This document shows, piece after piece, positions 7,447 through 21,735 of a stretch of DNA of 22,008 nt. The notes beneath the pieces were generated by a model, which saw only the letters and a program-made list of their open reading frames with translations, ran no database searches and had not been told where the DNA came from. Source of the DNA: a virus; IMG/VR virus record IMGVR_UViG_3300027779_000184, positions 1 to 22,008 of that record; one strand, 5' to 3'. The number at the start of each line of letters is the position of its first letter. Positions within the stretch are counted from its first letter, which is position 1. Position numbers and translations under genes: made by a program.

Positions 7447-8142
7447 TCAGTCGAATGGGTTATCTCCTATAACCATAGCCTCTTCAAAATCTAAACTAAA
7501 AGATATTGCAGGAAAATCTGAAGCAGTTATTTGTGTACTAAAAGAACGTATGAATCCTGTCATACCAACTACTGCCTTTGAGTTATCTGTATAAGGTGTA
7601 AAATGTTGCTTCCCATCACCAACACCAATAGCAAAATCATTGTCATATAATCTGTTTTTCCAAGAGAAAGGAATTAATGGTAATTGATTAATGTCAGTGT
7701 TACCATCATATCCGGTATGATATTCAAAATTTTCATCAGCACGACTTGGTATTAAGAAAACTATCTTTGCAATATTTTGGTCATCTTGTAATGAAGAAGC
7801 ATCTGTATATGAATGGAGTAATTGTGCCATTTCAAAGGAAGTTAAAGTTACTTCTTTTAAATTGTCACCCCCTTTATCTTTAATAATAGTTTGACCTAAT
7901 AACATGCCTGACATATTAATTGTCTTTTCCGACATACCAACATCGAATGCCAATTTTAAAGATTCACCTCTTACCATACCAACAAAAGGAACACCCATAT
8001 TCATTACAGTTTTATTAGTACTAATCCCGATTTCTGTAACAAATAGTGGAATACGATTTACTTGTGTATTACTACCACTTATTTCATTACGCCTTTGTAA
8101 TTCTAAAAAAACTCTGAACTCACTAAAATTTTTGCCACTCAT
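7447..8142 (-). CDS. Distal-tail/baseplate-like protein
   Basis: A 231-residue soluble protein directly after the tape measure gene, overlapping it as TAATG. This is the slot of the distal tail protein (Dit) in long-tailed viruses. The sequence supports a tail-tube/Dit-like beta fold only loosely. Residues 55-85 contain GMVRGESLKLAFDVGMSEK followed by a hydrophobic GMLLGQTIIKD strand. The C-terminus has GFIRSFSTQITASDFPAISF, resembling the final strands of tube-like proteins that state a GxIxSxS...F.F.L.FE pattern. No enzymatic motif is seen. It probably forms the ring joining the tube to the hub encoded downstream. The role rests mainly on gene order; a minor tail or LamG-adaptor protein is the alternative. 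Confidence 0.5.
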   Translation of the reverse strand: MSGKNFSEFRVFLELQRRNEISGSNTQVNRIPLFVTEIGISTNKTVMNMGVPFVGMVRGESLKLAFDVGMSEKTINMSGMLLGQTIIKDKGGDNLKEVTLTSFEMAQLLHSYTDASSLQDDQNIAKIVFLIPSRADENFEYHTGYDGNTDINQLPLIPFSWKNRLYDNDFAIGVGDGKQHFTPYTDNSKAVVGMTGFIRSFSTQITASDFPAISFSLDFEEAMVIGDNPFD

Positions 8143-9479
8143 TAGAATCTACCTGCCGATGCTCCTGTTCTATTCATGCGTAAGTTTATCTCTCTTGCAA
8201 CTTTATTTGCAATATCTTTTATTTCTGCATCATTTGCACCAACTCTTCCACTAACATGAACGTGAATAGTACTTCCTCCCATCCCTCTTGATTCTCTATT
8301 AGAATGTACTCTTGCACCTGATGGTAAAGAAACTAATTCCGGCCCTCTTTCTCCAACAACTGTAAGTCCACCACTAGAAACTCCTCCACTTGCCATGAAT
8401 GGAATTTTCTTCCGTAGTGCTTTGAAAGCCGCATGAAGACCATGTACTATAAAACTACCAAGAGCGAACAGAAGATTTTTCATTAGTAACATCATATTTT
8501 TTAATATAGGCCAAAGTCCTTCCATAAACGCCCTTCTAAAATCTCCTTTAAAGAGACCAACTACTAAATTATATACACCCAATAAAATTCCTTTTATATT
8601 TTCAAAGGCTTTTTCTAAATGAGGTAATGCTTTAGTAAATACTTTTTTGATAGTAGGCCAACTACGATATAGTACTCCAAATAATAGCATCGCTAATGAA
8701 AAATATATTAGTAATTTACCTAAAGCAAAGACACCCATAGTAATCATCTGTGAAAAAGGCCCAGTACCAATTGCCTTAAATGCTCCAATAAGATTACTAA
8801 CTTTTAATTTAGCAAACATATTAGTGACTTTCTTTCTTGCATTTAATAAACCTCTACTAACTTTTTCCTTTCCACCCATTGCACCTTCTCTACTCGCAAC
8901 TTTTCTAAATCCTTTGAACTTCTCTGCAAATATGTTTTTGTCTTTACCATATCCTTTATCTTTTAGATAAGAACCTACTCGGCCAAGTTCTTCTACATCT
9001 ACCCTTTTTCTCATTACTTTATGTAATTCTTCTTGAGCGTCCATTAGTTTCTTAGTAGCCTTTTCTTGAGCGTTAATTTCATTTAATATTTCGTCACTCT
9101 CATCTATAATAGGATTTTTCAGATTTTCAAACAATAAAAGTTGTTCATATAAACCACCAGCAAATGATTCTGCTTGAGAATGTGCTTTTTGCATTTCACC
9201 AAGACTAGATGTTAATTGCATATTAGAATCTAATGCTTTACGTTGTGCTTCTGCTTGTCCTGATAGGTTATCGTTGTATATATTAATCATATTTCCAACG
9301 GCTCTAATTCTGTTTTGTAATTTCCATAAACCTGAACCTGAAATTAATCTAGATGCAAAATTCCACGTTTTACTAGATTGAGCCATATCACCAAAACCAG
9401 CAGCAACTCCTGCTTGTTGGTCTTGTATAATGCCTAATGCTCTACCTAATTCACTAGTGGATTCGTATGCATCTCCCAT
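8142..9479 (-). CDS. Tail tape measure protein
   Basis: The 445-residue product fits a tape measure protein, which sets tail length and leaves with the DNA at ejection. The N-terminal 220 residues are helical and charged, suited to coiled coil. Three hydrophobic stretches follow (about 242-272, 297-311 and 328-349), typical of tape measures. The C-terminus contains GGLTVVGERGPELVSLPSG near 370-388, a hallmark segment of many tape measure proteins, then a Gly/His-rich end. I prefer ATG at 9479: AAGGTGA sits 5 nt upstream, while the in-frame GTG at 9488 lies within that ribosome-binding site. At roughly 1.5 angstrom per residue the length predicts a tail of about 65-70 nm, short for a siphovirus. 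It follows the frameshifted chaperone gene closely. Confidence 0.88.
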   Translation of the reverse strand: MGDAYESTSELGRALGIIQDQQAGVAAGFGDMAQSSKTWNFASRLISGSGLWKLQNRIRAVGNMINIYNDNLSGQAEAQRKALDSNMQLTSSLGEMQKAHSQAESFAGGLYEQLLLFENLKNPIIDESDEILNEINAQEKATKKLMDAQEELHKVMRKRVDVEELGRVGSYLKDKGYGKDKNIFAEKFKGFRKVASREGAMGGKEKVSRGLLNARKKVTNMFAKLKVSNLIGAFKAIGTGPFSQMITMGVFALGKLLIYFSLAMLLFGVLYRSWPTIKKVFTKALPHLEKAFENIKGILLGVYNLVVGLFKGDFRRAFMEGLWPILKNMMLLMKNLLFALGSFIVHGLHAAFKALRKKIPFMASGGVSSGGLTVVGERGPELVSLPSGARVHSNRESRGMGGSTIHVHVSGRVGANDAEIKDIANKVAREINLRMNRTGASAGRF

Positions 9480-9484
9480 TAATG

Positions 9485-10059
9485 TCACCTTCTTTTATTT
9501 GCTTCTTTTTCCATGTGTTCTGCTTTTATTTCTTCTACTGTTCCATGTATCATTATCATTTCGAGCATGTCTTTTACAGGAGTATGTTTTGCAGTATTAG
9601 GGTCTATCCCAAATATTTTGCAATAAGAGTATAATAAAATACGAAGGGCAATTACAGGGTCTACTTGACCACCATCTAAGGCTCTGCGTATTACTCTTCT
9701 TTTCCCGTATCAGCCTCCGTGCCTAAATCGTTGAATGGGTTAGGTAATACATCTTTTAATTGAGAACCTACATATGGGTTTAAGCGGAGTAAATCAAGTG
9801 AAGATAGAGAAGGCTCTGTTTTTTCTACAAAATTTTCTACCATAAACTTATACATTTTATTCAAATCTATATCCATTTTTTGAGTACTAGAATCTATCTT
9901 CATTACAGATGAAAGGGCTTGTTCTACTTGAAGCCATGTAGGTTCCTTAACCCACACTTTCATTATCTGTTCAGAGTCAGGACTAACTCTTAATTCATAC
10001 ATCGTTGTTTCTTCTGCCGCAAACAGGACACTCTTATCATTTACTATTTCTTTATTCAT
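9485..10059 (-). CDS. Tail assembly chaperone, -1 frameshift fusion (gpGT-like)
   Basis: Reading the upstream chaperone frame to the AAA codon at 9702-9700 and slipping back one base gives 120 upstream residues plus 71 more, ending at TGA 9487-9485 (191 residues in all). The extension starts RRVIRRALDGGQVDPVI and is charged and helical, ending EKEANKRR; the frame is fully open over 210 nt that otherwise hold no gene. In lambda, gpG and the frameshifted gpG-T bind the tape measure and recruit tube subunits, at a few percent frameshifting. The same arrangement appears here: slippery heptamer just before the first stop, T-like extension ending at the tape measure start. No strong downstream stem was found by eye. 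The fusion is supported by frame, position and known conservation of this mechanism in tailed viruses. Confidence 0.8.
9691..10059 (-). CDS. Tail assembly chaperone, unshifted product (gpG-like)
   Basis: A 122-residue acidic protein starting MNKEIVNDKS and ending EADTGKEE. ATG at 10059 is chosen because AGGTGG lies about 8 nt upstream; the longer frame beginning upstream adds only a Trp/Leu-rich run translated from the TTTG repeat. It contains YELRVSPDSEQIMKVWVKEPTWLQVEQALS-type sequence, then MDIDLNKMYKFMVENFVEKTEPS, consistent with the compact helical fold of gpG-like chaperones (tube-to-tape-measure loaders). It sits between tail tube and tape measure, the standard slot. The slippery heptamer lies in its last five codons. 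Sequence identity to a family cannot be checked here; the assignment rests on order, size and the frameshift. Confidence 0.75.
   Translation of the reverse strand: MNKEIVNDKSVLFAAEETTMYELRVSPDSEQIMKVWVKEPTWLQVEQALSSVMKIDSSTQKMDIDLNKMYKFMVENFVEKTEPSLSSLDLLRLNPYVGSQLKDVLPNPFNDLGTEADTGKEE
9700..9706 (-). promoter_or_regulatory. GGGAAAA -1 programmed frameshift site
   Basis: On the minus strand the heptamer reads G GGA AAA in the chaperone frame, an exact X XXY YYZ slippery site, one base different from lambda's GGGAAAG. The zero frame ends two codons later at TAA, while the -1 frame continues 71 codons to the tape measure start. Confidence 0.82.
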
Positions 10060-10079
10060 TTTCTTTCCACCTAACCATA

Positions 10080-10108
10080 ACCAACAAACAAACAAACGTA
10101 TTGTTGGT
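10080..10108 (-). other. Hairpin in the gap between tail tube and chaperone genes
   Basis: An 8-bp perfect inverted repeat (ACCAACAA / TTGTTGGT) with a 13-nt loop made of TTTG repeats lies in the 94-nt gap after the tail tube gene, upstream of the chaperone ribosome-binding site. It might tune mRNA stability or lower chaperone expression relative to the tube. The stem is short and partly low-complexity, so it may be fortuitous. The rest of the gap has only an orphan GGAGG at 10149-10153. Confidence 0.35.
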
Positions 10109-10153
10109 GGAACTTAAAACACTAGAATATCTTATTACTTCTGATATTCCTCC

Positions 10154-11728
10154 TTAATCATTTAGATGGAAAACAGCCCATCTACTTTTTGAAGTACAAC
10201 CACTTAATGTTCTAGGACTTAACATAACTTCTACTTCTACTGGCCCTTTATCATCAGGATAAGGAACAGAAACAGAACGTGTAACATAGTCTGTAAATTG
10301 TAAATCTACAAAATCAGTTGCACTTCTTTCAAATCGTAATTTTAAGGTACTAGTATTTTCTCCCCCTTCTCTTAATAAATCCCAAATCTTTGTATCTGTA
10401 ATCAATAGAGTTAAAGATATTTCATATGTTCTTTGTCCAGCAGTATGAAGAGACATTAATTGATTATTATAGTTACCAATAAATCTGTGAGGCGTTATGT
10501 TATTGCTAATAGAAAGAGAACCAGTTTTGACTCTAGCAAAATTTTGTCCATATACTTCGATTGTACCATCATGGAATAAGTATGGTATTTTATTTTCTGA
10601 ATAATTAGTATATGCAGTTACATCTGTAACTTTTCTATGAGGAGCATAATGTATAGGAGCATCAAATGCTCTACGAGTAACTAACTCTACAGTGTTTTTA
10701 ACCTCTTGTCCTTCTTCAAAATTCATAGTGTAAGAGTTAACTTGACAACCTGTAAAGATTCTAGAATATACTTGTTCTTCCGGTGTACCTGATGCTTGTA
10801 CAGTTTGAACTGAAAAATCTCCACCACTTGCTCTATTTGCTCCTTTAGAATATGAAACGTCTAAAGCAAAAGAGGGTAATGTTCCTGAGTTATCTTCTGT
10901 AAAACTATATACAAATGCGTCTGTTGCAGTAGATGATATTTTTTTATAATCGTCAGTCAATACTGTGCCATCAAAATCTATAGGGCTAGTCGTATCTGCA
11001 AGTGTAGGGTGAGGATAACCTTCAGCACCCGTTGTACCACTTGGAACAATATTACGAACAATTCCCTGTGGTGAATCTACGGCAATTTGATTAGTACCGC
11101 CAGCAGTATTAAGTGCTGCTACATTAGTCATGCTATCTAGTGTTACATTACCTAATGCATAGTATAACCACATTGGATTATTCATTGATACTTCTATGCT
11201 TCCACCACTTACTGTTTCACCTTTAGTAAATTGAAACCCTAAATTTCTAGAACCACCAGCAACTAAGTTTAATTCACCTGTTTCTACTTCTACGTTTGGT
11301 GGTGTAAATGTGTTTACAAGCCCTAACCAGTTATCAGAGAGTATAGATGTCTTACCTGAAGCAGGAGCAAAAACAGGAACAGGTGCTCCAAATCCTTGTA
11401 TTGCTACTATACAGCCTGTTTCTCCTGTTATAGTAGAAGCATTTTCTCCTATAGTAAGAGTAGTAGTTGTATTAGATATAATAGTTGCCATAACTTTTTT
11501 TGTTCGGTCACCTTCGTCAATTATTTCAACTTGGCAACCAACATATAAATTAGGAACTAAACTTAATGTTTGAAAATCTCCATTTGTATATTGTGCATCA
11601 ATAGTGATTGTGTTAGCAGGGTTGGCTGTAGAGTTACTAACTGCACAATTATCTCCAAGAAATATCTTACATTCCGGTGCATAACTCGCAATTACTCCTG
11701 ACCCTACAAATATCTCATTACTTACCAT
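10154..11728 (-). CDS. Major tail tube protein
   Basis: A 524-residue beta-rich protein placed between the tail terminator and the chaperone pair, the position of the tube subunit that polymerises around the tape measure. The segment from about 145 to 195, NVEVETGELN...GGSRNLGFQFTKGETVSGG and then WLYYALG, and the C-terminal region with YEISLTLLITD and LQFTDYVTRSVSVPYP have the alternating strand character of tube proteins. It is long for the family: residues 37-110 carry an inserted barrel-like module (TITIDA..., VGCQVEIIDEGD, ATIISNTTTTLTIGEN), the same kind seen in the tail-tip proteins. ATG at 11728 has AGGTGAG five bases upstream. The gene is followed by a 94-nt gap with a hairpin, like the capsid gene. 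Tube assignment is strong by order, moderate by sequence. Confidence 0.72.
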   Translation of the reverse strand: MVSNEIFVGSGVIASYAPECKIFLGDNCAVSNSTANPANTITIDAQYTNGDFQTLSLVPNLYVGCQVEIIDEGDRTKKVMATIISNTTTTLTIGENASTITGETGCIVAIQGFGAPVPVFAPASGKTSILSDNWLGLVNTFTPPNVEVETGELNLVAGGSRNLGFQFTKGETVSGGSIEVSMNNPMWLYYALGNVTLDSMTNVAALNTAGGTNQIAVDSPQGIVRNIVPSGTTGAEGYPHPTLADTTSPIDFDGTVLTDDYKKISSTATDAFVYSFTEDNSGTLPSFALDVSYSKGANRASGGDFSVQTVQASGTPEEQVYSRIFTGCQVNSYTMNFEEGQEVKNTVELVTRRAFDAPIHYAPHRKVTDVTAYTNYSENKIPYLFHDGTIEVYGQNFARVKTGSLSISNNITPHRFIGNYNNQLMSLHTAGQRTYEISLTLLITDTKIWDLLREGGENTSTLKLRFERSATDFVDLQFTDYVTRSVSVPYPDDKGPVEVEVMLSPRTLSGCTSKSRWAVFHLND

Positions 11729-12471: not shown

Positions 12472-13572
12472 TCACAATATAAAATGCACTATATTTTGTT
12501 TACCTTTCAAAATTGCATTGGCCTCTTCTAGTAATATATCGTGTTTAGCCTTCAAATCAATATTAGAACCGGTTTCAGCAATTAATATTGAATTATCATC
12601 ATGTCTAATTATTTCAGCCGCTACTATCTTAGTTGCTGCTTCATGAATAGGAGCAGGTACTCTACCTTCTCCGGCAACATATGTTACTCGAATAGAATGA
12701 TGATGATTATGAGGATACTCTTGTCTAAAGAAAATCTTTCCTTCATCATTCATAGTCCAATAATCATTTTGTCTTCCTGAATTTTGATTATCAGTAAAGG
12801 ATGTAACTGAACCATATGTTGAACTAAGACCACAATAAGTTCCATCTTCTCCCTCTAACAGTGAACTAATAACTATTCTTTTTTTATTTTCACTATCTAA
12901 AGTAGCATAAAAGAAATCAGAAACATGCACACTAGGAGCACCGTTTGCAGTAATAGTTTTCTTAGCAGTTTCCCCTGTAAACTTAGCAGTTTTCATAGGG
13001 TACACTTCATTAATAGCATCTACAATTTGACTTGCAGTAGTTTTTGGGCCAAAGTTATCATAGAAATGTCGAATACTATTATTTGCTAAATTTTTAATTT
13101 CAAAGGTATATGTTGTTGGATTACCAACAGTTAATGATATTGTCCAATCATTTGTAGTAGCAGAATCAGGAACTATTAATGTTGCAGAAGCAGAAGCCAA
13201 GTCTTTCCAAGTATCTCCTTGGTAAACTTCTAACCGTACTAATTTTTGTACTTTAGGGTAACTTAATTGAACAAAACCCACATAATCTTTATATGTAGAA
13301 ATTGGATAAGAATTAAGTCTCATAGTATCAAACGAATGAAATTCATCTTTGTAAATAATAGGTCTATATGATGACTTAATAGAATCATCTATTTTTTCTT
13401 CTACTCTTTTGATTAGTTTACCTATCTCAATAAGATTAGGAGTAGTATTAGCAGTAAATACACCAATTTGTAGTAGGTTAGATATATCAGTATGAGTAGT
13501 ATAATGCCCCTTACCTGCGGCATAGTCAACATCTATATTTGTAAAATCACTAGGGGAGGAAACTTTACCCAT
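12472..13572 (-). CDS. Head-tail adaptor with a large beta-rich insertion
   Basis: The ends of this 366-residue protein look like a gp6/gp15-type head-tail connector, the ring beneath the portal. At the N-terminus, ISNLLQIGVF and IGKLIKRVEEKIDDSIKSSYRP (residues 30-71) form the first helices. At the C-terminus, HSIRVTYVAGEGRVPAPIHEAATKIVAAEIIRHD (292-325) is the strand plus helix that closes such proteins. Connectors usually run 100-200 residues; here about 150 residues from 125 to 280 are inserted, Thr/Ser/Asn-rich, with a TTASQIVDAINEVYP helix inside. ATG at 13572 has GGTGA six bases upstream, one base after the preceding stop. The insertion may decorate the neck. Good confidence in neck role, moderate in the exact family. 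Confidence 0.65.
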   Translation of the reverse strand: MGKVSSPSDFTNIDVDYAAGKGHYTTHTDISNLLQIGVFTANTTPNLIEIGKLIKRVEEKIDDSIKSSYRPIIYKDEFHSFDTMRLNSYPISTYKDYVGFVQLSYPKVQKLVRLEVYQGDTWKDLASASATLIVPDSATTNDWTISLTVGNPTTYTFEIKNLANNSIRHFYDNFGPKTTASQIVDAINEVYPMKTAKFTGETAKKTITANGAPSVHVSDFFYATLDSENKKRIVISSLLEGEDGTYCGLSSTYGSVTSFTDNQNSGRQNDYWTMNDEGKIFFRQEYPHNHHHSIRVTYVAGEGRVPAPIHEAATKIVAAEIIRHDDNSILIAETGSNIDLKAKHDILLEEANAILKGKQNIVHFIL

Positions 13573-13573
13573 G

Positions 13574-15652
13574 TTAATTCACCAACGCCTTTAATCTATT
13601 ATACCCTTGCTTGATATTTAAAAAGTGTTTTATTGCTAAGTTATATGAACCATCAACTGTTCTATTGTTTACTGTTTCTTTTCTTCCACCAGTTAATGTT
13701 TTACCACTAAAAGTTAATTTATAATTTTGAGGAGTAGTATCTATTATTGATTCTGAACTATATACTGTATCTGCAAAAATGATAGGTACTCTAGATTCAC
13801 CAAATACTATAGTTTTTCCTGTTTTTCTCATTAAGTCTTTAACATATGGACTTAATGTTACAAAATCAAATGCTACCATTGTATTATCATCGTTTGAAGT
13901 ATCAATACCTCTTTTCAATTCTTGATATTTTGCAAATAAATCTTCTAATTCAATATCTAATTTTCCTTTTATTACTTCATATGAAGATAGAATTTTTGTC
14001 CATGAAATATCTTCTTCCGGTTTGTCTTCTACTTCTTCCGGTTTGTCTTCTTCTTCAGATACAGGCATAGATAATTCTTTTATTTGTTCACGTAGATTAT
14101 CTGATATCTGAATATTGTTAATTTTATCTTCTAATGTTTCAATATCCATTTTATCCATATGACCCATCATAATAAGCATTTCTTTAAGAACTTCTTTTTC
14201 TTCTTTGGTTAGTGTAATTTCTACATCTTTATCTAAATTCAATTTAGTTTTTGTGCTTTCTACCCAACTAGTTTTCTTTTTTTCACTACCACTTTCAGTA
14301 TTACTTACAGATATCTTTAATTCACCTAACTTTAATTTTCTTTTTTCAGGTATTAAATATGAATAAATAATATCTTTTAAAGGATGTTTGTCTTGTGACA
14401 ATATGATTTTTTCTATATATTTTTCTAGCACTTTAGGATTAGTTTGTAATTCTGACATTTCATCATATACTTCTTCTAAAGAATTATATATTTTACTTCC
14501 TGTGAATCCTTCAATTTTAAACTGGACATCTTCTGTAGAATAGCCAACTCTTTCATCACCTTGTAAAATAACATATAATAATGGAATGTTATCTTGTTCA
14601 TCCTTTTCAGAAAAAACTTTAACTTTCCCTTCAAACTTTTTACCCTTGAAATCAGTTCCACTTTCTGTTTTTGTTTCCGACCTTGTTTGTCCTACCTTAA
14701 ATGGTGAGTCCTTTGCATTTATATCACCAAAACCTTCTTTTTTAAACAAGTCTTCTATATATGTTTTAATATCAAAATCTATACGAGTAGATTCATAATT
14801 AAAATAATCTGTAATATCTTCAAAAAGAATAGGTTTAGATTTATCAAAGGCATCTATAAGTTCTCCACTCTGTTGAGGTTCACCTTCACTAGAACTACCT
14901 TCACTAGAACTACCTTCACTAGAACCACGTTCATTAATAAATAATAAATTATCAATTGCTGACCTATCATCTATTTGAGATAACGTAAATTCTTTCAATT
15001 CATCTTCATTTAATTCTAATGGTCTATCTTCAAAGGGCGTTATTTTTTTCTCACCTGAATCTGTAGCATCTAGTTTACCATTTCCAATTGACTGGTTATA
15101 GGATGTTTTTTGTCCCTCTATGGGTCCATCATATTCTTCTACGCCTGTACTTAATTTCTTTCCTTCATTTTCATCTTCTTGTGTATAGGTATAACTCTCT
15201 CTTGGTATTTTATATACCTTTTCTCTTGTTTCTTGATTAATCCAATATAATACTTTTTCACTCTTCATTCTTGTAGGAAAGAAATCTGTTTTACTTAATG
15301 TCTCTAGTATAGTATACATATCGGTACTTTCTATTACTTCTAAATAATGTTTAATATAATTATTAAAGGATTTTACATCAATATCATATAACCCACCATA
15401 TTTATTACTTATTTTATCAAACTCTCCACTATCATATTGTAATAATTTAGGAATAACTTTTTTTGCTTGTTTCATATTAGCAGGTCTTTTTTTTGCCGAT
15501 GTAGTTCTATGAAACACATATGCTAACATACCCATAAAAATAGGATTATTTTCTGATACTAATTCATTAAAACTTTTACTATTATCTTCTTGAGTGAGTG
15601 TTAAATCCTCTTTACTATTAGGTAAAATTTCAGAAGGAATTGTAAAACTCAT
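13574..15652 (-). CDS. Large acidic protein of unknown function
   Basis: A 692-residue protein I do not recognise. Residues 1-160 are mixed alpha/beta, with YGGLYDIDVKSFNNYIKHYLEVI and a basic patch at 52-66. Residues 160-265 are low-complexity and charged, including three SSSEG-type repeats (243-258). A second ordered region spans 280-450, followed by a helical region 480-530 with EEKEVLKEMLIMMGHMDKMD. The acidic EEDKPEEVEDKPEED (533-548) leads to a last domain ending FLNIKQGYNRLKALVN. No transmembrane segment, signal peptide or nucleotide-binding motif is evident. It lies between the Gly/Met-rich protein and the adaptor, a place where most long-tailed viruses have nothing of this size. Its position favours an internal virion, neck or assembly protein. 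ATG at 15652 follows AAGGTGG. Confidence 0.7.
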   Translation of the reverse strand: MSFTIPSEILPNSKEDLTLTQEDNSKSFNELVSENNPIFMGMLAYVFHRTTSAKKRPANMKQAKKVIPKLLQYDSGEFDKISNKYGGLYDIDVKSFNNYIKHYLEVIESTDMYTILETLSKTDFFPTRMKSEKVLYWINQETREKVYKIPRESYTYTQEDENEGKKLSTGVEEYDGPIEGQKTSYNQSIGNGKLDATDSGEKKITPFEDRPLELNEDELKEFTLSQIDDRSAIDNLLFINERGSSEGSSSEGSSSEGEPQQSGELIDAFDKSKPILFEDITDYFNYESTRIDFDIKTYIEDLFKKEGFGDINAKDSPFKVGQTRSETKTESGTDFKGKKFEGKVKVFSEKDEQDNIPLLYVILQGDERVGYSTEDVQFKIEGFTGSKIYNSLEEVYDEMSELQTNPKVLEKYIEKIILSQDKHPLKDIIYSYLIPEKRKLKLGELKISVSNTESGSEKKKTSWVESTKTKLNLDKDVEITLTKEEKEVLKEMLIMMGHMDKMDIETLEDKINNIQISDNLREQIKELSMPVSEEEDKPEEVEDKPEEDISWTKILSSYEVIKGKLDIELEDLFAKYQELKRGIDTSNDDNTMVAFDFVTLSPYVKDLMRKTGKTIVFGESRVPIIFADTVYSSESIIDTTPQNYKLTFSGKTLTGGRKETVNNRTVDGSYNLAIKHFLNIKQGYNRLKALVN
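14011..14051 (-). repeat. Two tandem 21-bp repeats inside the acidic gene
   Basis: A 20-base identical unit occurs at 14011-14030 and 14032-14051. It encodes the doubled acidic motif EDKPEE, so it is a coding microrepeat able to change copy number in frame. Confidence 0.85.
14881..14925 (-). repeat. Three tandem 15-bp repeats inside the acidic gene
   Basis: The unit ending CCTTCACTAGAAC (plus strand) occurs three times at a 15-base period, encoding repeated SSSEG in a low-complexity linker. The period is a multiple of three, so gain or loss keeps the frame. Confidence 0.88.
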
Positions 15653-15665
15653 ACATCAAACCACC

Positions 15666-16376
15666 TTAAGCAAGCCATTTAGCCCAAGCAACACCTTTTG
15701 TTAATGCTGCTCCTAAACCTAAACCACTTGCCGGAGGTGTATATGTCATCTGTCCTGTAGCAGGGTCAATCCAATATGCATTGTTCATGTTATCATATCC
15801 AGCAGGAGGAACAGGATATCCTGATGTATTGTTCATAGCCATCATTTGTTGATTCATAGTATTGTTCATACCAACTCCCATATTACTTCCTTGGATATTT
15901 GAAGGATTCATACCCATTTGATTAGGTACACCCATTCCACCCATTCCACCCATTTGTGGTTGATTAGATGCTGCTTGTCCTCCAAATCCTTGAGATTCTA
16001 AGTATTGTGCTTTTGCCATTCTACGTTGCATAACGACTTCTGTATTTATTGCAGAGGCTAATAGACCTTGTAAATCTAATTCAATATTAGCCGCAGAAAT
16101 TTGTTCATATTCAGCCTTGATATTTGTGTTCAGAGTTATCCCTGCACTTGTGGTTGTAAATTCAAGTTTAGATAACATCTGCCCAACTACTCTTTGTGTC
16201 ACATCTTCCATTAATTGTTCTAAAGCAGACAAGAATGCTTCACCATGATATTGGAAAAAATCTTCTACATGGTTTTCTTGTAGAGTTAATAAATTGTTCA
16301 TTGTCTTAAATTGACTTTGTTGGTTAGTTGATATTGATGATGCTAATTGTCCATTGCTCGTTCCGAATAATCCCAT
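15666..16376 (-). CDS. Gly/Met/Asn/Gln-rich protein with helical N-terminal domain
   Basis: A 236-residue protein with three parts. Residues 18-125 are helical (FKTMNNLLTLQENHVEDFF, EQLMEDVTQRVVGQMLS) and may oligomerise. Residues 131-185 are dominated by Gly, Met, Asn and Gln, including MGGMGGMGVPNQMGMNP, resembling prion-like or phase-separating segments. The last 50 residues contain YWIDPATGQMTYTPPASG and end in a hydrophobic LGAALTKGVAWAKWLA helix that could touch membrane or partner. ATG at 16376 overlaps the preceding stop as TAATG, so it is translationally coupled to the putative zinc protein. No known family is recognised. It may be a self-associating virion or assembly protein working with the acidic protein and GTPase encoded on either side. 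Confidence 0.72.
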   Translation of the reverse strand: MGLFGTSNGQLASSISTNQQSQFKTMNNLLTLQENHVEDFFQYHGEAFLSALEQLMEDVTQRVVGQMLSKLEFTTTSAGITLNTNIKAEYEQISAANIELDLQGLLASAINTEVVMQRRMAKAQYLESQGFGGQAASNQPQMGGMGGMGVPNQMGMNPSNIQGSNMGVGMNNTMNQQMMAMNNTSGYPVPPAGYDNMNNAYWIDPATGQMTYTPPASGLGLGAALTKGVAWAKWLA

Positions 16377-17053
16377 TACTTTTCACTCTCCGCTTGTGTC
16401 ACGGTATTAGGGACCTTAACGCCTTCGGTCAATAAGACTTTCACTCTATTACTGTTAGATTCATTCTCAATTAACAATCTGAACAATTCATCTTCTTTAC
16501 TTTCACCTGACATTGTAGGTGGTTTAACAGTCCAACCTAATCCAGCAAGTGAAGTTATATCTCCTTGTTTAAGACTAGTTAATGGTCCTGATGATAATGG
16601 ATTTAAGTTAGGCATTTTAGGTATATATGCACTATAACTTAAACCATGTTCTTCTGCTAACATTTGCTGTTCTAACATTTCATATTGTCTATGCATTTGT
16701 GCATGTTTCATACAATAAGTTCCTCTCATTGGATATCCCTTTCTAACTTTATGTAGTGGTAGTGGTGGTCTCATTTGGTCACTCGCTTCCCATATTTTCT
16801 GTGTTCCACAAACTACACATCTATCTTTTATATTATATTTGAAACTATAAGGGATTTTTAAGAAAGTTTTTTTCTCAGGTAACATAACCTTTATTATTTC
16901 TTTTAATTGTTTTTTAGGTTTAATATTTTTATAGTCGTACAACATTATTGTACCTGCTGCTCTTGCTTGAGCATATCTATCCATAAAAGCATTTGATGCG
17001 ACATTTGTGGTAGTAGCACCTATTAAATTAGGGGGTTGGTAGTTCATCGTCAT
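16376..17053 (-). CDS. Putative zinc-binding protein (CxxC...CxxH)
   Basis: A 225-residue protein with a treble-clef or zinc-ribbon-like set of ligands: C79-x2-C82 (RCVVCG) and C114-x2-H117 (YCMKH), with H121 nearby. Basic residues precede the first pair (KPKKQLKEIIK, 46-56) and separate the pairs (HKVRKGYPMRG). The N-terminal 35 residues (YQPPNLIGATTTN...DRYAQARAAG) look disordered; a helix with EMLEQQMLAEE follows the zinc site, and the C-terminus is a Pro/Ser-rich linker ending in a charged helix. Nothing in it resembles a nuclease active site. ATG at 17053 follows AGGTGG; the stop overlaps the next start, and the GTPase gene ends 11 bases upstream. A GTPase partner or nucleic-acid/protein-binding assembly factor are both possible; function unknown. 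Confidence 0.68.
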   Translation of the reverse strand: MTMNYQPPNLIGATTTNVASNAFMDRYAQARAAGTIMLYDYKNIKPKKQLKEIIKVMLPEKKTFLKIPYSFKYNIKDRCVVCGTQKIWEASDQMRPPLPLHKVRKGYPMRGTYCMKHAQMHRQYEMLEQQMLAEEHGLSYSAYIPKMPNLNPLSSGPLTSLKQGDITSLAGLGWTVKPPTMSGESKEDELFRLLIENESNSNRVKVLLTEGVKVPNTVTQAESEK

Positions 17054-17064
17054 GGTATTCCCAC

Positions 17065-17736
17065 CTAGTAGTCCTTTATCATTGTTAAGATTCCTCTATA
17101 AACCATCTCTGAGTCTGATTTAGCACTCACAATATACTTATGACATGGAATTCCTTTTTCATTTAATTTTTGCATACCACCTGTAAATGCATCAAATATA
17201 GGGTGTTTTTCTATTGGCCCATCATGGTCATATTTGTCTTTCCACAAATCATATTTGTTAGCCCACAATGATACGGCAATAGGATAATCATTTTCCTTTT
17301 TCCTTTTTCTTTTATTATTAGTATTCCATTCTGATGCACAAATAGTATCTACTAGAAAAGTCCAACATAACTGTTGTTCTATATCATAGTGCTTATTCAT
17401 ATGTCTATCATCAAATAAAAATATGATATATTTATTTTTACGTTCTTTCATATCTTTAACCCATTCAGTCCAATAAATAGTCTGCCCACCAATATCAGCA
17501 GTTTTAACGGTATGAGCATCTCCATCTAATTTTATAAATTTTCTAGAAGCCTTCTCTAAACCAACAGTTCTTTCCATAACATCAGGCACTTCACCTCTAG
17601 TCCTCAATTGGTGGTGTAATGTTGTCTTCCCTGCTTTACTCGCACCATATACACCAAAAGGAATTGAATGTAATCTTTGATAAATCTTATTCATTCCTTC
17701 CACCAATAAGATAGCGAAACCTGCCATTACTGACAA
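17065..17736 (-). CDS. Arf/Ras-like small GTPase
   Basis: All five G motifs are visible in this 223-residue protein: G1 GASKAGKTT (31-39), G2 Thr57 in RTVG, G3 DIGGQ (81-85), G4 NKYD (160-163) and G5 SAK (204-206). DxGGQ plus the TVG switch resembles the Arf/Sar branch, and Gln85 is the expected catalytic glutamine, so hydrolysis looks intact. A basic KRKRKK patch (142-147) is inserted before G4, and residues 5-12 are hydrophobic (AGFAILLV), which could help membrane docking. TTG at 17736 is preferred: GGTGAT lies 3 nt upstream, overlapping the membrane gene's TGA stop, while ATG at 17727 is too far away. It is encoded between a membrane protein and a putative zinc protein inside the virion operon. 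A membrane-associated assembly or egress switch is an inference. Confidence 0.9.
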   Translation of the reverse strand: MSVMAGFAILLVEGMNKIYQRLHSIPFGVYGASKAGKTTLHHQLRTRGEVPDVMERTVGLEKASRKFIKLDGDAHTVKTADIGGQTIYWTEWVKDMKERKNKYIIFLFDDRHMNKHYDIEQQLCWTFLVDTICASEWNTNNKRKRKKENDYPIAVSLWANKYDLWKDKYDHDGPIEKHPIFDAFTGGMQKLNEKGIPCHKYIVSAKSDSEMVYRGILTMIKDY

Positions 17737-17740
17737 CTTA

Positions 17741-17965
17741 TCACCACAAATGATGCCAAAGGTCTATCAATCCATTCCATAATATTGAGATTGTATTTAT
17801 CCCAAAAATGGCTAATGCTTGACCGATGAAAAAACTAGATACTACTGAGGCCATTCCCCATATCCAAAACCTTGCTCGTATAAACCATATATCTGCTGAA
17901 TGCGCCCTTTGTAAGTCATACGCCATAGTAGACTCATCAAAACCCATTAGGATTTCGCCTACCAA
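17741..17965 (-). CDS. Small Trp-rich membrane protein
   Basis: A 74-residue protein with an acidic, soluble N-terminus (FDESTMAYDLQRAHSAD), a transmembrane segment at about residues 33-56 (FWIWGMASVVSSFFIGQALA) and a Trp/His-rich amphipathic tail ending LWNGLIDLWHHLW that may lie on the membrane surface. TTG at 17965 is chosen because AGGTGAT lies 3 nt upstream, the same geometry as the next gene; ATG at 17947 would give 68 residues and is the alternative. Its TGA stop forms part of the GTPase ribosome-binding site, so the two are probably co-translated. No family is recognised: holin-like size fits, but the single-segment layout and pairing with a GTPase suggest an anchor or receptor instead. 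Confidence 0.68.
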   Translation of the reverse strand: MVGEILMGFDESTMAYDLQRAHSADIWFIRARFWIWGMASVVSSFFIGQALAIFGINTISILWNGLIDLWHHLW

Positions 17966-17973
17966 TTAATCAC

Positions 17974-18399
17974 CTACTGCTCCAATGTTAAGAAAGAAGG
18001 ACTTACTCCTTCTGTTGTTCCTTTTATTGTTGGTAAGTTGTTGTCACCATAAACATTAGGAGGAGATTGAACTGAGTTATTCCATGTTTGTTGGAAGTTT
18101 CTAAAGGACTCTCTAACTCTTTTACGGTTCTCTTCTTCTCTTGCTCTACGACTCCAATACGAATCAATCCTTCTTTGTAATAATGTCTCTTCAATATAGT
18201 CATTGGCTACTAAATCAAATACTGCTTTCATTATCATAATGCCACCAATAGTACTTATGCCGAATAATAAAGCATGAGCCTCAACACCGTAAGGGAAACC
18301 TACTCCATATTGTGCATAAAAGTAGACATTCATTCCACTAACTGCACCTACAAAAAGAATAGTCATGACTAATCTTGTATCAGTATCAATACTTGCCAC
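17974..18399 (-). CDS. Two-helix membrane protein with charged cytoplasmic tail
   Basis: A 141-residue protein with two hydrophobic helices, about 11-31 (VMTILFVGAVSGMNVYFYA) and 41-65 (AHALLFGISTIGGIMIMKA), joined by a short Gly/Pro loop. A long charged helix follows (66-107, rich in Arg and Glu: RRAREEENRKRVRESFRNF), then a Pro/Asn/Thr-rich end. The positive residues after helix two suggest the tail faces the cytoplasm, available to the GTPase encoded two genes on. GTG at 18399 follows GGAG by 8 nt and starts four bases after the previous stop. Holin is possible from topology, but there is no lysin nearby and the tail is long for a holin. Function unknown. Confidence 0.68.
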   Translation of the reverse strand: MASIDTDTRLVMTILFVGAVSGMNVYFYAQYGVGFPYGVEAHALLFGISTIGGIMIMKAVFDLVANDYIEETLLQRRIDSYWSRRAREEENRKRVRESFRNFQQTWNNSVQSPPNVYGDNNLPTIKGTTEGVSPSFLTLEQ

Positions 18400-18403
18400 A
18401 AAA

Positions 18404-18682
18404 TCAACTCCACTCTAGGGAGAAAAAGCCAGTTCCAGTTTTAACTGCGTATAGTCCTTTAGCGCAGATACGACCATGCATATCAAATTCACTAGATGTT
18501 CCTGCTAATAATACCATTCTGCAAACTTCTACATCACCTGATTCAGACGCATCATCACTATCATAAACTGAAACAGTAAAGGCTGACCCTGAAGTATTAG
18601 CCACATGTAAACTATTTAACTTACATCTACCTTTGTATACTAATGTATTTACTGCTAAAACTCCACTACCACTACAACCTAT
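18404..18682 (-). CDS. Small beta-rich virion-like protein with abnormal start
   Basis: The conventional frame starts at GTG 18604 (66 residues), but the frame is open for 26 codons before it, and that stretch (GVLAVNTLVYKGRCKLNSLH) continues the beta pattern VANTSGSAFTVSVYDSDD convincingly. Small phage beta proteins with this VYxG...LxVxNTSGSxxTVxVYD layout are common among head or decoration proteins. No ATG, GTG or TTG exists in the extension. An ATA at 18682 has AGTGAT three bases upstream, the spacing used by the two TTG starts in this window, and overlaps the preceding stop as ATAG. I give 18682 as the likely but unproven start (92 residues). The C-terminal half, VCRMVLLAGTSSEFDMHGRIC and YAVKTGTGFFSLEWS, closes the fold. 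A decoration or head-completion role is inferred. Confidence 0.6.
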   Translation of the reverse strand: MGCSGSGVLAVNTLVYKGRCKLNSLHVANTSGSAFTVSVYDSDDASESGDVEVCRMVLLAGTSSEFDMHGRICAKGLYAVKTGTGFFSLEWS

Positions 18683-19056
18683 GCAATCACTTCCTTAATA
18701 TCTTCTGTAAGGCTTTCTTTCTTAGGAGTTGCTATCGCTTTTGCTTTTTTAACAGGTTTTGCTTTTGCTTTCTTTGCTTTTTTAGGAAATAGTATTTTTG
18801 TTGCTTGACTACGAGTGTCGCCTTCTTTTAATTCATCACATAATCTAATTAGTTCACTAAATTTATGATTATTTAATCTTGCAATATCTGCTTTGTCCAT
18901 ATCATCAAATGTGCAGATAAAACCATCACTATGTAACATGGTTATGGCATGGTTTAATGGTATTGTTGTTGGGTGGCTAAATCCTACTGGATATATAACT
19001 CCACCAATTTTTAAATCTTTAGTCATTTCTTCTTTTTCTAATGATATTTGTGTCAT
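18679..19056 (-). CDS. Small protein with Lys/Ala-rich tail
   Basis: A 125-residue protein encoded directly after the capsid gene. Residues 12-80 form a compact domain (LKIGGVIYPVGFSHPTT, then HAITMLHSDGFICTFDDMDKADIARLN, then SELIRLCDEL). Residues 92-113 are Lys/Ala/Pro-rich (KKAKKAKAKPVKKAKA), like histone H1 or DNA-condensing tails. ATG at 19056 is preferred since AGGTGA sits 5 nt upstream; the in-frame GTG at 19065 is part of that site. I do not recognise the family. The slot fits a head-completion or minor capsid protein; the basic tail could touch packaged DNA or the acidic proteins nearby. A 94-nt gap with a hairpin separates it from the capsid gene. Confidence 0.66.
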   Translation of the reverse strand: MTQISLEKEEMTKDLKIGGVIYPVGFSHPTTIPLNHAITMLHSDGFICTFDDMDKADIARLNNHKFSELIRLCDELKEGDTRSQATKILFPKKAKKAKAKPVKKAKAIATPKKESLTEDIKEVIA

Positions 19057-19079
19057 GTGTTTCACCTTTTTTAATAGTG

Positions 19080-19150: not shown

Positions 19151-20539
19151 TTAAGCACTCTTTAAGTTAGTAATCTTACCTTGTCCCTTAAAGAAAGAAC
19201 AACATACTTCTGCTATAGTCCTGTACATTGCTTGGTTTCCTAAAGTTCCAACACCGAATGGGTTTCCGTTAGAAATACCGTCTTCGAAGTATTCTGTAGG
19301 TTTCAGAACTGATAACCATAGATGGTCTGTATCTAAGATAAAGATATCACTTAGGCCACCTGTTGTACCTGCTGCTGTTGTTGAAGCCATATCCTTACAA
19401 GGGATTAATGGTATATCATAGTATGTTGCAACTCTGAAACCAACTTCAGCACCTTTAACTCCACGTACACCATTATGTGTAGGAACAATTTCTTTCCTAT
19501 CCATAAATCTCTCTTGTGACTGTAATAAGTCAGAGATGTGTTGTATGGTATCGTATCCTGTTAAGATACACTTTGGGTTTCCACCATTTTGACGGATTCT
19601 ACGAATCATGTCATTTAATAGTGTTAGAGTTAATACTCTAGCAGAACCGCTTCCGTAACTTGCACCGAAGTCAACTTCAGCATCCAAGAAACTTGGTACT
19701 AATACTATGTCTTCAATACTGTCAGCGTCACTTGGAGTGTTAGTGTTATCTGCGGCAGCAGTAACTCCTCTGTTATCACCATAAATACCCTTGATTTTTG
19801 GGTCAATTGCTACTGTAGTACCACTATTTTCACTGTCTTCTGTTATATTGTTCAAATACATTTGTCCTATTTCAGCAGCACTTGCTACAACTTTATACAA
19901 AGATGTATAGTTGTTGTCTACTTCTGTAATACCTGATTGAGAGTAAGATTCAAGAGGCATTAATAGCATCTTGTTCTGTACTTCAGCATGGTGTTTACCC
20001 ATATCTTCACGAACTATAGCACGTATATCGCCAACACCGTCATCAATAGCAGCCATTTCCATTGCAAGTTCAGAGAACTCAAATTTATGTGCTATTGTTT
20101 TAGGGCTTACGAATAGTTTTGTATATTCAGGGGCTAATGCTGGAATACTAGCAAGAGTGGCATTCTCTGCAACTCCACCTATTTCATCCAATCTTGGTGC
20201 TGCACTTCCTGCTGCATCTGCTCCAACTGCAAAAGAAGAACCACTACCACCTTGAGGTCGGCTCTTTAGAACTCTCCAACCACTTGATGTATATGGCCTC
20301 TTAGCAATCATTGACAAAGCATTAACTTCTTGGTTAAGCATTGACCAAACTTTCTGTCCATAAAGAACGTTGTACAAATCAGTTAATCCTGTTGCACCAC
20401 TAAAAGCCGTTCCACCGTCATGAGAACCATGTAGTCCTCCTACGATGCCGGCACTCTTCAACAAAGCATTACCACTACCGCCTGTTAAGCCGTATGATGC
20501 TGCTTCTAAATCTTTCATTGTTTTTATATATCCACTCAT
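19151..20539 (-). CDS. HK97-fold major capsid protein
   Basis: A 462-residue protein encoded right after the protease/scaffold gene, the position of the major capsid protein. The N-terminal 50 residues are Gly/Ser/Ala-rich and may be trimmed during maturation. Residues 52-95 (LTDLYNVLYGQKVWSMLNQEV, then AKRPYTSSGWRVLKSRP) and 140-192 (KLFVSPKTIAHKFEFSELAM, then the spine-like helix GVGDIRAIVREDMGKHHAEVQNKM) fit the HK97 fold. The second half has ILTGYDTIQHISDLLQS and the closing DIFILDTDHLWLSVL strand. ATG at 20539 has AGGAGG nine bases upstream, a strong site suited to an abundant protein. The large hairpin after the stop probably separates its dosage from downstream genes. Strong by order and composition; alignment was not possible. 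Confidence 0.88.
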   Translation of the reverse strand: MSGYIKTMKDLEAASYGLTGGSGNALLKSAGIVGGLHGSHDGGTAFSGATGLTDLYNVLYGQKVWSMLNQEVNALSMIAKRPYTSSGWRVLKSRPQGGSGSSFAVGADAAGSAAPRLDEIGGVAENATLASIPALAPEYTKLFVSPKTIAHKFEFSELAMEMAAIDDGVGDIRAIVREDMGKHHAEVQNKMLLMPLESYSQSGITEVDNNYTSLYKVVASAAEIGQMYLNNITEDSENSGTTVAIDPKIKGIYGDNRGVTAAADNTNTPSDADSIEDIVLVPSFLDAEVDFGASYGSGSARVLTLTLLNDMIRRIRQNGGNPKCILTGYDTIQHISDLLQSQERFMDRKEIVPTHNGVRGVKGAEVGFRVATYYDIPLIPCKDMASTTAAGTTGGLSDIFILDTDHLWLSVLKPTEYFEDGISNGNPFGVGTLGNQAMYRTIAEVCCSFFKGQGKITNLKSA

Positions 20540-20553
20540 TTCTTCATTCCTCC

Positions 20554-21183
20554 TTAATTGTATTTCCTTGCTATGTTAGCGATTTCATCCCATGATAAGT
20601 TACTTACATCACTTGGAATTTCTATTGATTGAGATTTAATAATCTCGTCATTTCGTGTTGCTAATGATTTGCGTAGGTCTGCAAATTCTTCTTTTAATGC
20701 ATTTACGTCTGAACGAGCATCGTATGATGCTGCTTCAGCCATAGATTTCTTAACTGTTAATTCAGTTCCTAACCTTGCTTCAAATTGTTTACTTAGAGAA
20801 TCATATGCAATCTTTTCCATTTTTTCTGCTTTAAATGCTGCATATGCTTTTTCTACATTTTCTGACGTTAGATTAAGAGTTGCAAAATCTGCATTCTCTA
20901 ATCCTTTAGATACGTTAAGTTGAGTAGGGGTAGCAACGGGGTTTCCATTACTTACTACTTCTTCTCCGGCTTCGTAATCTCTTGTTGAATCTTCATCAAG
21001 AGCCTTCTCTTCCATATCTTCATCTAAATCAGTAGGCATTTCATCTAATTCCTCTTCTTCATCAGTGTCCATGTATTCCATAGACTTGGCTTCTTCTAGC
21101 GGGGCTTCTTCCTTGTGGATAGAATTAACTTGTTTCATCAAGTCATTCAGTTCCTCAAGTGCTTTTTCCAGTTTTTCACTCAT
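20554..21183 (-). CDS. Scaffold protein from internal in-frame start
   Basis: Within the protease gene, ATG at 21183 is preceded by a perfect GGAGG seven bases upstream (21191-21195), and the codon begins exactly where the protease domain ends and the coiled coil begins. The product would be 209 residues: coiled coil, acidic linker, helical C-terminus. Nested scaffold inside protease is known from lambda C/Nu3 and related viruses, letting the virus make many scaffolds per protease. The site is stronger than that of the full gene, supporting the expected excess. Proof would need protein N-terminal data. Confidence 0.72.
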   Translation of the reverse strand: MSEKLEKALEELNDLMKQVNSIHKEEAPLEEAKSMEYMDTDEEEELDEMPTDLDEDMEEKALDEDSTRDYEAGEEVVSNGNPVATPTQLNVSKGLENADFATLNLTSENVEKAYAAFKAEKMEKIAYDSLSKQFEARLGTELTVKKSMAEAASYDARSDVNALKEEFADLRKSLATRNDEIIKSQSIEIPSDVSNLSWDEIANIARKYN

Positions 21184-21735
21184 TTTTTTTCCTCCTTTTT
21201 CTACATTTTTTTCCATTTTTAAAATGTCGAATCTTGCTTCGGGATTTATCCCTTTTTCACAGATGGTTACTTCATGTAATTCCAACTTTTCTATTTCGTT
21301 GTATTCTCCATACTCATCATTAGTCTTCTGTTTCTTAGATATTGCTTGTCCACCAATACTAAAAGAACGAAGAGTTCCTTTTCTAATACCTCTTGAAATT
21401 TCCTTTGCCTTTTCTATGTCATCTCTTAATTTAATAACTACATAGAAACCAACATCATCTACTGCGGTCTTATGTAAGACACCATTACTATCTCTATATT
21501 TTTCTACTACTTCTCCTACTTGTACATTAGAATGATTAGACATTACATTTCTGTATTTCTTTTCTCCCATGTATTTGTGAACTGCTTCATCTAAAGCCTG
21601 TAATGTGATTAAATCATTTTGTTTGTCTACAATTTCTATAGATGCATATCCACCTATAATTAAGTCATCAGACTTTAATATTTTAAAATTATGGGAAGTA
21701 TCCGCCTTCATTAAAAGGGATTCCGCCATAAGCAT
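20554..21735 (-). CDS. Prohead protease fused to scaffold domain
   Basis: Residues 1-175 match the HK97-type prohead protease family (S78-like): His68 in MSNHSNVQVGEV, the Ser in TLRSFSIGGQA (Ser124 or Ser126) and the closing LELHEVTICEKGINPEARF segment with Glu residues that may complete the site. Residues 185-393 are a scaffold-like region: a coiled coil (EKLEKALEELNDLMKQ), a very acidic linker (about 205-250), and a helical C-terminus with KMEKIAYDSLSKQFEARL and VNALKEEFADLRKSL. The protease would cleave scaffold and capsid N-termini during maturation. A strong internal start at residue 185 allows scaffold alone to be made. ATG at 21735 has AAGG upstream and a TATA-like box 27 nt away. It precedes the capsid gene by 14 bases. 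Confidence 0.86.
   Translation of the reverse strand: MLMAESLLMKADTSHNFKILKSDDLIIGGYASIEIVDKQNDLITLQALDEAVHKYMGEKKYRNVMSNHSNVQVGEVVEKYRDSNGVLHKTAVDDVGFYVVIKLRDDIEKAKEISRGIRKGTLRSFSIGGQAISKKQKTNDEYGEYNEIEKLELHEVTICEKGINPEARFDILKMEKNVEKGGKKMSEKLEKALEELNDLMKQVNSIHKEEAPLEEAKSMEYMDTDEEEELDEMPTDLDEDMEEKALDEDSTRDYEAGEEVVSNGNPVATPTQLNVSKGLENADFATLNLTSENVEKAYAAFKAEKMEKIAYDSLSKQFEARLGTELTVKKSMAEAASYDARSDVNALKEEFADLRKSLATRNDEIIKSQSIEIPSDVSNLSWDEIANIARKYN
21191..21195 (-). promoter_or_regulatory. Internal ribosome-binding site for scaffold
   Basis: GGAGG followed by seven A residues and ATG inside the protease gene; one of the best-matching ribosome-binding sites in the window. Confidence 0.75.

Follow-up and report, generated by a model that had tools for sequence, protein, structure and literature searches.

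A predicted Arf-like small GTPase encoded between the capsid and neck genes of magroviruses

A small GTPase gene located between the capsid and neck genes can be identified, from its distribution across viral capsid loci, as a core late gene of magroviruses. It was found in a 22,008-base virus record from IMG/VR (IMGVR_UViG_3300027779_000184, the whole of which is referred to here as the window), and its product is strongly supported by motifs and by a structural model as a member of the Ras superfamily, with a lean toward the Arf family. Although the superfamily itself is known, a tailed virus that keeps one of its members as a fixed late gene appears to be new; the magrovirus literature examined mentions no GTPase, although an earlier annotation in some table or supplement is possible. 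By a narrow preference we read the protein as a switch, controlled by GTP, that acts in a membrane step late in infection, either assembly at the host membrane or exit through it.

The gene is located on the minus strand at 17065-17736, including the stop codon, and encodes 223 amino acids from a TTG start codon that lies 4 nt past the stop codon of the upstream gene. All five nucleotide-binding motifs can be followed through 186 distinct relatives, namely the G1/P-loop GASKAGKTT (residues 31-39, 17620-17646, G31 and G36-K37-T38-T39 invariant), the G2/switch I Thr57 within RTVG (17566-17568, T57 in 186/186 and G59 in 185/186), the G3/Walker B sequence DIGGQ (residues 81-85, 17482-17496), the guanine specificity motif G4 NKYD (residues 160-163, 17248-17259, with N160, K161 and D163 invariant) and the G5 motif SAK (residues 204-206, 17119-17127, invariant). 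D81, G83, G84, S204, A205 and K206 are likewise present without exception, so that the conservation of the G-motifs, as read from the alignment, is far above chance. Position 85 is Gln in 62 of the 186 relatives, and in the window protein, and Glu in 124, with at least five Gln/Glu switches on the GTPase tree and nine on the capsid tree. A Trp seven residues after this position (W92) occurs in 186/186 and aligns with a Trp of PDB chain 8oun_A, and other Trp positions also show no variation among the relatives, which in addition have a hairpin formed by residues 136-145. The initial annotation had described a complete Arf/Ras-like GTPase with five nucleotide-binding motifs and the catalytic Gln of DIGGQ, and with translation signals overlapping those of its neighbors. 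The reading frame and the motifs are as described, and so is the overlap, as the GGTGA ribosome-binding site read from the sequence (17741-17745, minus strand) shares bases with the upstream stop codon; the catalytic Gln holds for the window protein, but not as a conserved trait of its relatives. On one contig the GTPase reading frame is split in two pieces (8001-8669), owing to a frameshift or a sequencing error.

An AlphaFold2 model built on 70 relatives (pLDDT 86.7, pTM 0.85) has the canonical G-domain order of strands and helices, preceded by an N-terminal helix at residues 2-22; an earlier model from 12 close sequences (pLDDT 52.7) was discarded. Foldseek matched the model to 1405 PDB chains at E ≤ 0.001, and the matches listed are small GTPases throughout. 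In VIA-align the best match is Arf6-GTP (Z 18.3, 161 residues, rmsd 2.3) and the first 28 rows are all Arf or Arl (Z 17-18.3), followed by one Rag entry at 17.0 and then by Rab5 and the Asgard ArfR at 16.9. Because Z gaps of about 1 count as ties, 'Arf-like' is used here only as a lean, which is backed by the sequence signatures GKTT in the P-loop, T-x-G in switch I, DxGG (DxGGQ in the window protein) and the Trp at Q+7, and an N-terminal helix ahead of the G domain is a further likeness to Arf and Arl proteins. The viral proteins differ from these in having only about 20% identity to them, Glu instead of Gln85 in most relatives, and invariant Trp residues and the 136-145 hairpin of their own. 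The G5 motif SAK is one that we take to be of Ras/Rab type, where an Arf-type motif would be CAT. Residue 2 is Ser in 174 relatives, Thr in 11 and Glu in one, hence the Gly2 myristoylation site of eukaryotic Arf is lacking.

Sequence searches place the protein at the edge of the known families. The window protein scores 15.4 against Pfam PF00025 (Arf; cut-off 22.3), its profile matches to Ras and Arf are marginal (best E 0.008), and a sequence search against solved structures gave no significant match. Some relatives do pass the Pfam cut-offs (Arf 23.3/22.3, Ras 23.3/21.6, MMR_HSR1 24.5/21.9). The PHROG search returned no match for the window protein, which together with the Ras-superfamily fold agrees with the view of the initial annotation that it stands outside the routine phage families; the structure prediction that the annotation had proposed as a check thus gave a G domain whose nearest solved structures are Arf and Arl. 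One relative weakly matches the thymidylate kinase PHROG (E 0.006), an identity rejected in view of motifs and fold, and the window protein has weak AAA matches in the Pfam scan. PADLOC detected nothing for the GTPase and one neighbor marginally, at E 0.04, so that a defense role is not supported. Taking motifs and model together, the protein is very probably a GTP-binding switch.

The window can be assigned to its source from its capsid protein and from its larger relatives. Its capsid protein is about 24% identical to those of the Druskaviridae HCTV-1, HVTV-1 and HCTV-5, and the large GTPase-bearing relatives, of 84-103 kb, encode a family B DNA polymerase in 12/12 cases tested, with two separate matches per record. 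The Magrovirales, viruses of Poseidoniales, have been described as kin to the Druskaviridae, with a low G+C content, genomes of 90-110 kb and a PolB in two parts (PMC10768690; PMC12999244), and these traits place the window in that order, as part of a magrovirus genome; the assignment of Poseidoniales as host is taken from the same two studies. A GroEL-type chaperonin was detected in 5 of 18 large records, and MCM helicase stayed below the cut-off in all 18. The two are traits reported for the Aoguangviridae and not for every magrovirus clade, and the partial presence of the one and the sub-threshold matches of the other therefore suggest that several clades, at least two, are represented in this set.

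Within the window the GTPase gene stands in a run of structural genes, all on the minus strand. It includes the prohead protease (20554-21735; Peptidase_S78, E 9e-10) and the HK97-fold major capsid protein (19151-20539; SU10_MCP; phrog_24667, E 6e-22), which is a homolog of the Druskaviridae capsid protein. These are followed by a 128-aa protein with a Lys/Ala-rich tail (18679-19065; 29 of 116 loci), a small 66-aa protein conserved with the block (18404-18604; 89/116), a membrane protein of 141 aa with two transmembrane segments and a charged tail (17974-18399; 113/116) and a small membrane protein of 74 aa with one transmembrane segment and a conserved RAHSAD motif (17741-17965; 115/116). Directly downstream of the GTPase gene lie a zinc-knuckle protein of 225 aa (CxxC ... 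CxxH; 16376-17053; 113/116) and a 236-aa protein with a conserved helical N-terminal half and a second half rich in Gly, Met and Asn (15666-16376; 106/116). A poorly conserved acidic protein of 692 aa (13574-15652) separates this block from the head-tail adaptor (12472-13572), a homolog of HCTV-1 gp117 (hhalign 97.9%), which is itself placed as adaptor from gene order, and the tail tube protein (10154-11728; PF18906, E 4e-13; HCTV-1 gp121, 93.4%) and the tape measure protein (8142-9488; phrog_991, E 5e-11) lie further downstream. The acidic protein occurs in 25 of 116 loci, though its neighbors are near-universal. The C-terminal tail of the 128-aa protein just past the capsid gene, KKAKKAKAKPVKKAKA, resembles a DNA-binding tail.

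Across 116 distinct loci the order of the 141-aa and 74-aa membrane proteins, the GTPase, the zinc-knuckle protein and the 236-aa helical protein is fixed wherever the sequence reaches. Since the genes here follow one another on a single strand, a few bases apart, the GTPase gene is part of the late operon and, judging from this arrangement, is not an insertion with signals of its own. The initial annotation had called the gene integral to the late operon, a view borne out by the fixed synteny, the same-strand packing and the co-inheritance with the capsid gene described below. It had also seen the gene as flanked by membrane proteins, which is correct for the upstream side but not for the downstream side, where the zinc-knuckle protein, a soluble one, and the helical Gly/Met-rich protein are encoded. 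Pfam scans of the neighbors revealed no family match to known regulators, egress or membrane-remodeling proteins. The zinc-knuckle protein, with its Cys and His residues kept across loci and no Pfam or PHROG match, is a candidate regulator.

Scans of IMG/VR yielded 24, 358 and 402 related stretches in overlapping lists, and more than 400 stretches encode the gene. Counting only capsid loci with at least 3.5 kb of downstream sequence, 182 distinct loci were obtained, of which 179 have the GTPase 1.4-3.5 kb past the capsid gene; the other three belong to HCTV-1 and two methanogen viruses. Every magroviral capsid locus that extends far enough downstream, 179 in all, thus encodes the GTPase, always between the capsid and neck genes, and the search among related viruses that the initial annotation had suggested, where absence would have spoken against its reading, found the gene throughout. 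Exactly one copy is present in each of the 18 large magrovirus records. No match was obtained in 50,697 phage records and no relative in plasmid collections, and a scan of 84,980 cellular species, which reaches close relatives only, found no copy except on two magroviral contigs in one MAG. These two GTPase-bearing contigs are binned in a MAG labeled Maricaulis (NZMJ01) and are taken as misbinned virus, an apparent contamination of the public genome.

The GTPase has evolved along with the capsid protein. Pairwise distances of the two are correlated (Mantel r 0.81, compared with a maximum of 0.08 in 999 permutations), the mean pairwise distance is 0.33 for the GTPase and the MCP alike, and the median dN/dS is about 0.07 for the GTPase versus 0.12 for the capsid gene. 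From these comparisons the GTPase is an old, vertically inherited and strongly constrained viral gene.

The hydrophobic N-terminal helix (residues 2-22; 17671-17733, minus strand) is predicted, and we propose it as a membrane anchor. Over the 186 relatives its mean Eisenberg hydrophobicity is 0.49, with Glu13, Tyr/Trp19 and Lys/Arg21 near-invariant, and on this composition it seems suited to a membrane interface. The window helix, with a Kyte-Doolittle value of 1.33 over 19 residues, stays under the 1.6 commonly taken to mark a transmembrane segment, whereas 51% of relatives exceed it. The hydrophobic helix and the two transmembrane neighbors together suggest a membrane-anchored switch, and the GTPase is probably membrane-associated.

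In the mechanism that we propose, the GTPase would be anchored in the host membrane by its N-terminal helix, with the two transmembrane proteins alongside, GTP binding would turn it on late in infection, and the zinc-knuckle protein would serve as its regulator or effector. The switch would then drive a membrane step of the late cycle, in which capsid assembly might be recruited to the membrane, or the membrane might be deformed and opened for exit, by analogy with ArvA vesicle budding in Euryarchaeota and with Arf1 in eukaryotes. Whether the switch acts in a membrane step of late assembly or egress is finely balanced, and the choice of exit rather than assembly is about even. The fuller scenario, in which the virus's own Arf-like GTPase, the two membrane proteins and the zinc regulator bud or open the host membrane as a normal part of virion assembly or release, is offered tentatively and is less likely than not.

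The closest functional parallel is found in Haloferax volcanii, where the small GTPase ArvA, which carries an amphipathic helix at its N terminus, is required for vesicle formation; the arvA operon also encodes a Zn-ribbon protein for which a role as GAP of ArvA has been proposed (PMC10927574). Compared by its published description, ArvA of the ArvA/OapA system shares with the magroviral protein the character of a small GTPase of an archaeal system, the N-terminal membrane-interacting helix and the zinc-protein neighbor, while the magroviral GTPase is viral and lies beside capsid genes. ArvB (PF09846) and ArvC (PF09845), or OapB/OapC, were not found among the neighbor genes scanned with Pfam, and by gene content the viral block does not amount to an ArvABC operon. 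A whole-record search with PF09845 (the OapC/ArvC zinc-ribbon) gave sub-threshold matches (E 5e-4 to 0.007) far from the GTPase, located at 80360-80575 in one large record and at similar places in five others.

The synteny with capsid and neck genes would equally suit a component of the virion or its assembly without a membrane role, for example a conformational timer in head completion or head-tail joining, with the helix buried in a partner protein. That the GTPase gene always lies between the capsid and adaptor genes, and that the protein is as conserved as the capsid protein, at a lower dN/dS, would fit such a factor. However, the colinear HCTV-1 makes its head and neck without the GTPase, no such GTPase turned up in other tailed viruses, to judge from the PHROG search with the window protein and from the 50,697 phage records, and its fixed upstream neighbors are transmembrane proteins, hence we regard a virion factor as rather unlikely. 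A still less probable explanation is host takeover, in which a small-GTPase mimic competes for host regulators and rewires the polarity, motility or vesicle traffic of Poseidoniales. The Arf-like fold and the occurrence of ArvA-type vesiculating GTPases across archaeal phyla (PMC10927574) are in line with this explanation. The gene is nevertheless present throughout, evolves slowly and keeps a fixed place within the late structural cluster, and apart from the misbinned contigs the cellular scan, within its reach of close relatives, found no copy. Takeover genes usually have a patchy distribution, evolve fast and act early.

The two remaining explanations concern the biochemistry of the protein. 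Since Glu replaces the catalytic Gln in 124/186 relatives, it might be a pseudo-GTPase, that is, a nucleotide-binding scaffold without hydrolysis that its partners hold in a single state. In Ras, a Glu here is compatible with hydrolysis, all other defining nucleotide-contacting residues are invariant and the window protein carries Gln, which makes a pseudo-GTPase improbable. Another P-loop enzyme that only resembles a GTPase, such as a nucleotide kinase, an AAA ATPase or a packaging factor, could be read from the thymidylate-kinase match of one relative and the weak AAA matches of the window protein, but with NKxD and SAK invariant in 186 proteins and a fold that matches small GTPases we consider this highly improbable.

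The fuller scenario, with a GTPase that buds or opens the host membrane, would, if true, describe a GTPase-driven assembly or egress machine of a kind not known in any virus of prokaryotes. Archaeal cells are without the murein wall that is targeted by phage lysis, and how tailed viruses assemble in and leave such cells is largely unknown. The hosts of magroviruses are among the most common archaea of the surface oceans, and a universal, virus-owned Arf-like switch beside the capsid genes provides a concrete candidate for assembly or exit of an archaeal virus. It also adds archaeal tailed viruses to the range of membrane-type small GTPases, next to eukaryotes, giant viruses and the vesicle systems of archaea, which bears on the spread and evolution of such switches. 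Among predicted viral structures, all named entries within the best 50 matches (one row is unnamed) belong to giant eukaryotic viruses, with E-values down to 2e-10. The Rab, Ras and Ran proteins of these viruses are likewise virus-encoded Ras-superfamily GTPases, and a role in virion membrane biogenesis has been proposed for the mimivirus Rab (PMC4569851), but they belong to another host domain and virus realm, have about 9 to 21% identity to the magroviral protein and are encoded outside any tailed-virus capsid-neck block.

The Druskaviridae (HCTV-1, HVTV-1) offer the nearest comparison for the structural cluster itself, with a related capsid protein and the adaptor and tail tube matches to gp117 and gp121 given above, in colinear order. 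They differ in having no GTPase between MCP and adaptor, nor any recognizable homolog of the other block proteins there. A comparison of HCTV-1 gp113-gp116 with the magroviral block gave no hhalign match above 20%, and the block, in the interval from capsid to neck genes, was therefore either gained by magroviruses or lost by Druskaviridae. HCTV-1 gp116 (16203-16532), a small protein that has a transmembrane segment and a coiled tail, lies just before the adaptor gene, in the slot of the magroviral membrane block. Upstream of the HCTV-1 capsid gene, gp109 (7621-11253) is annotated with a zeta-toxin domain, which is odd in a structural operon.
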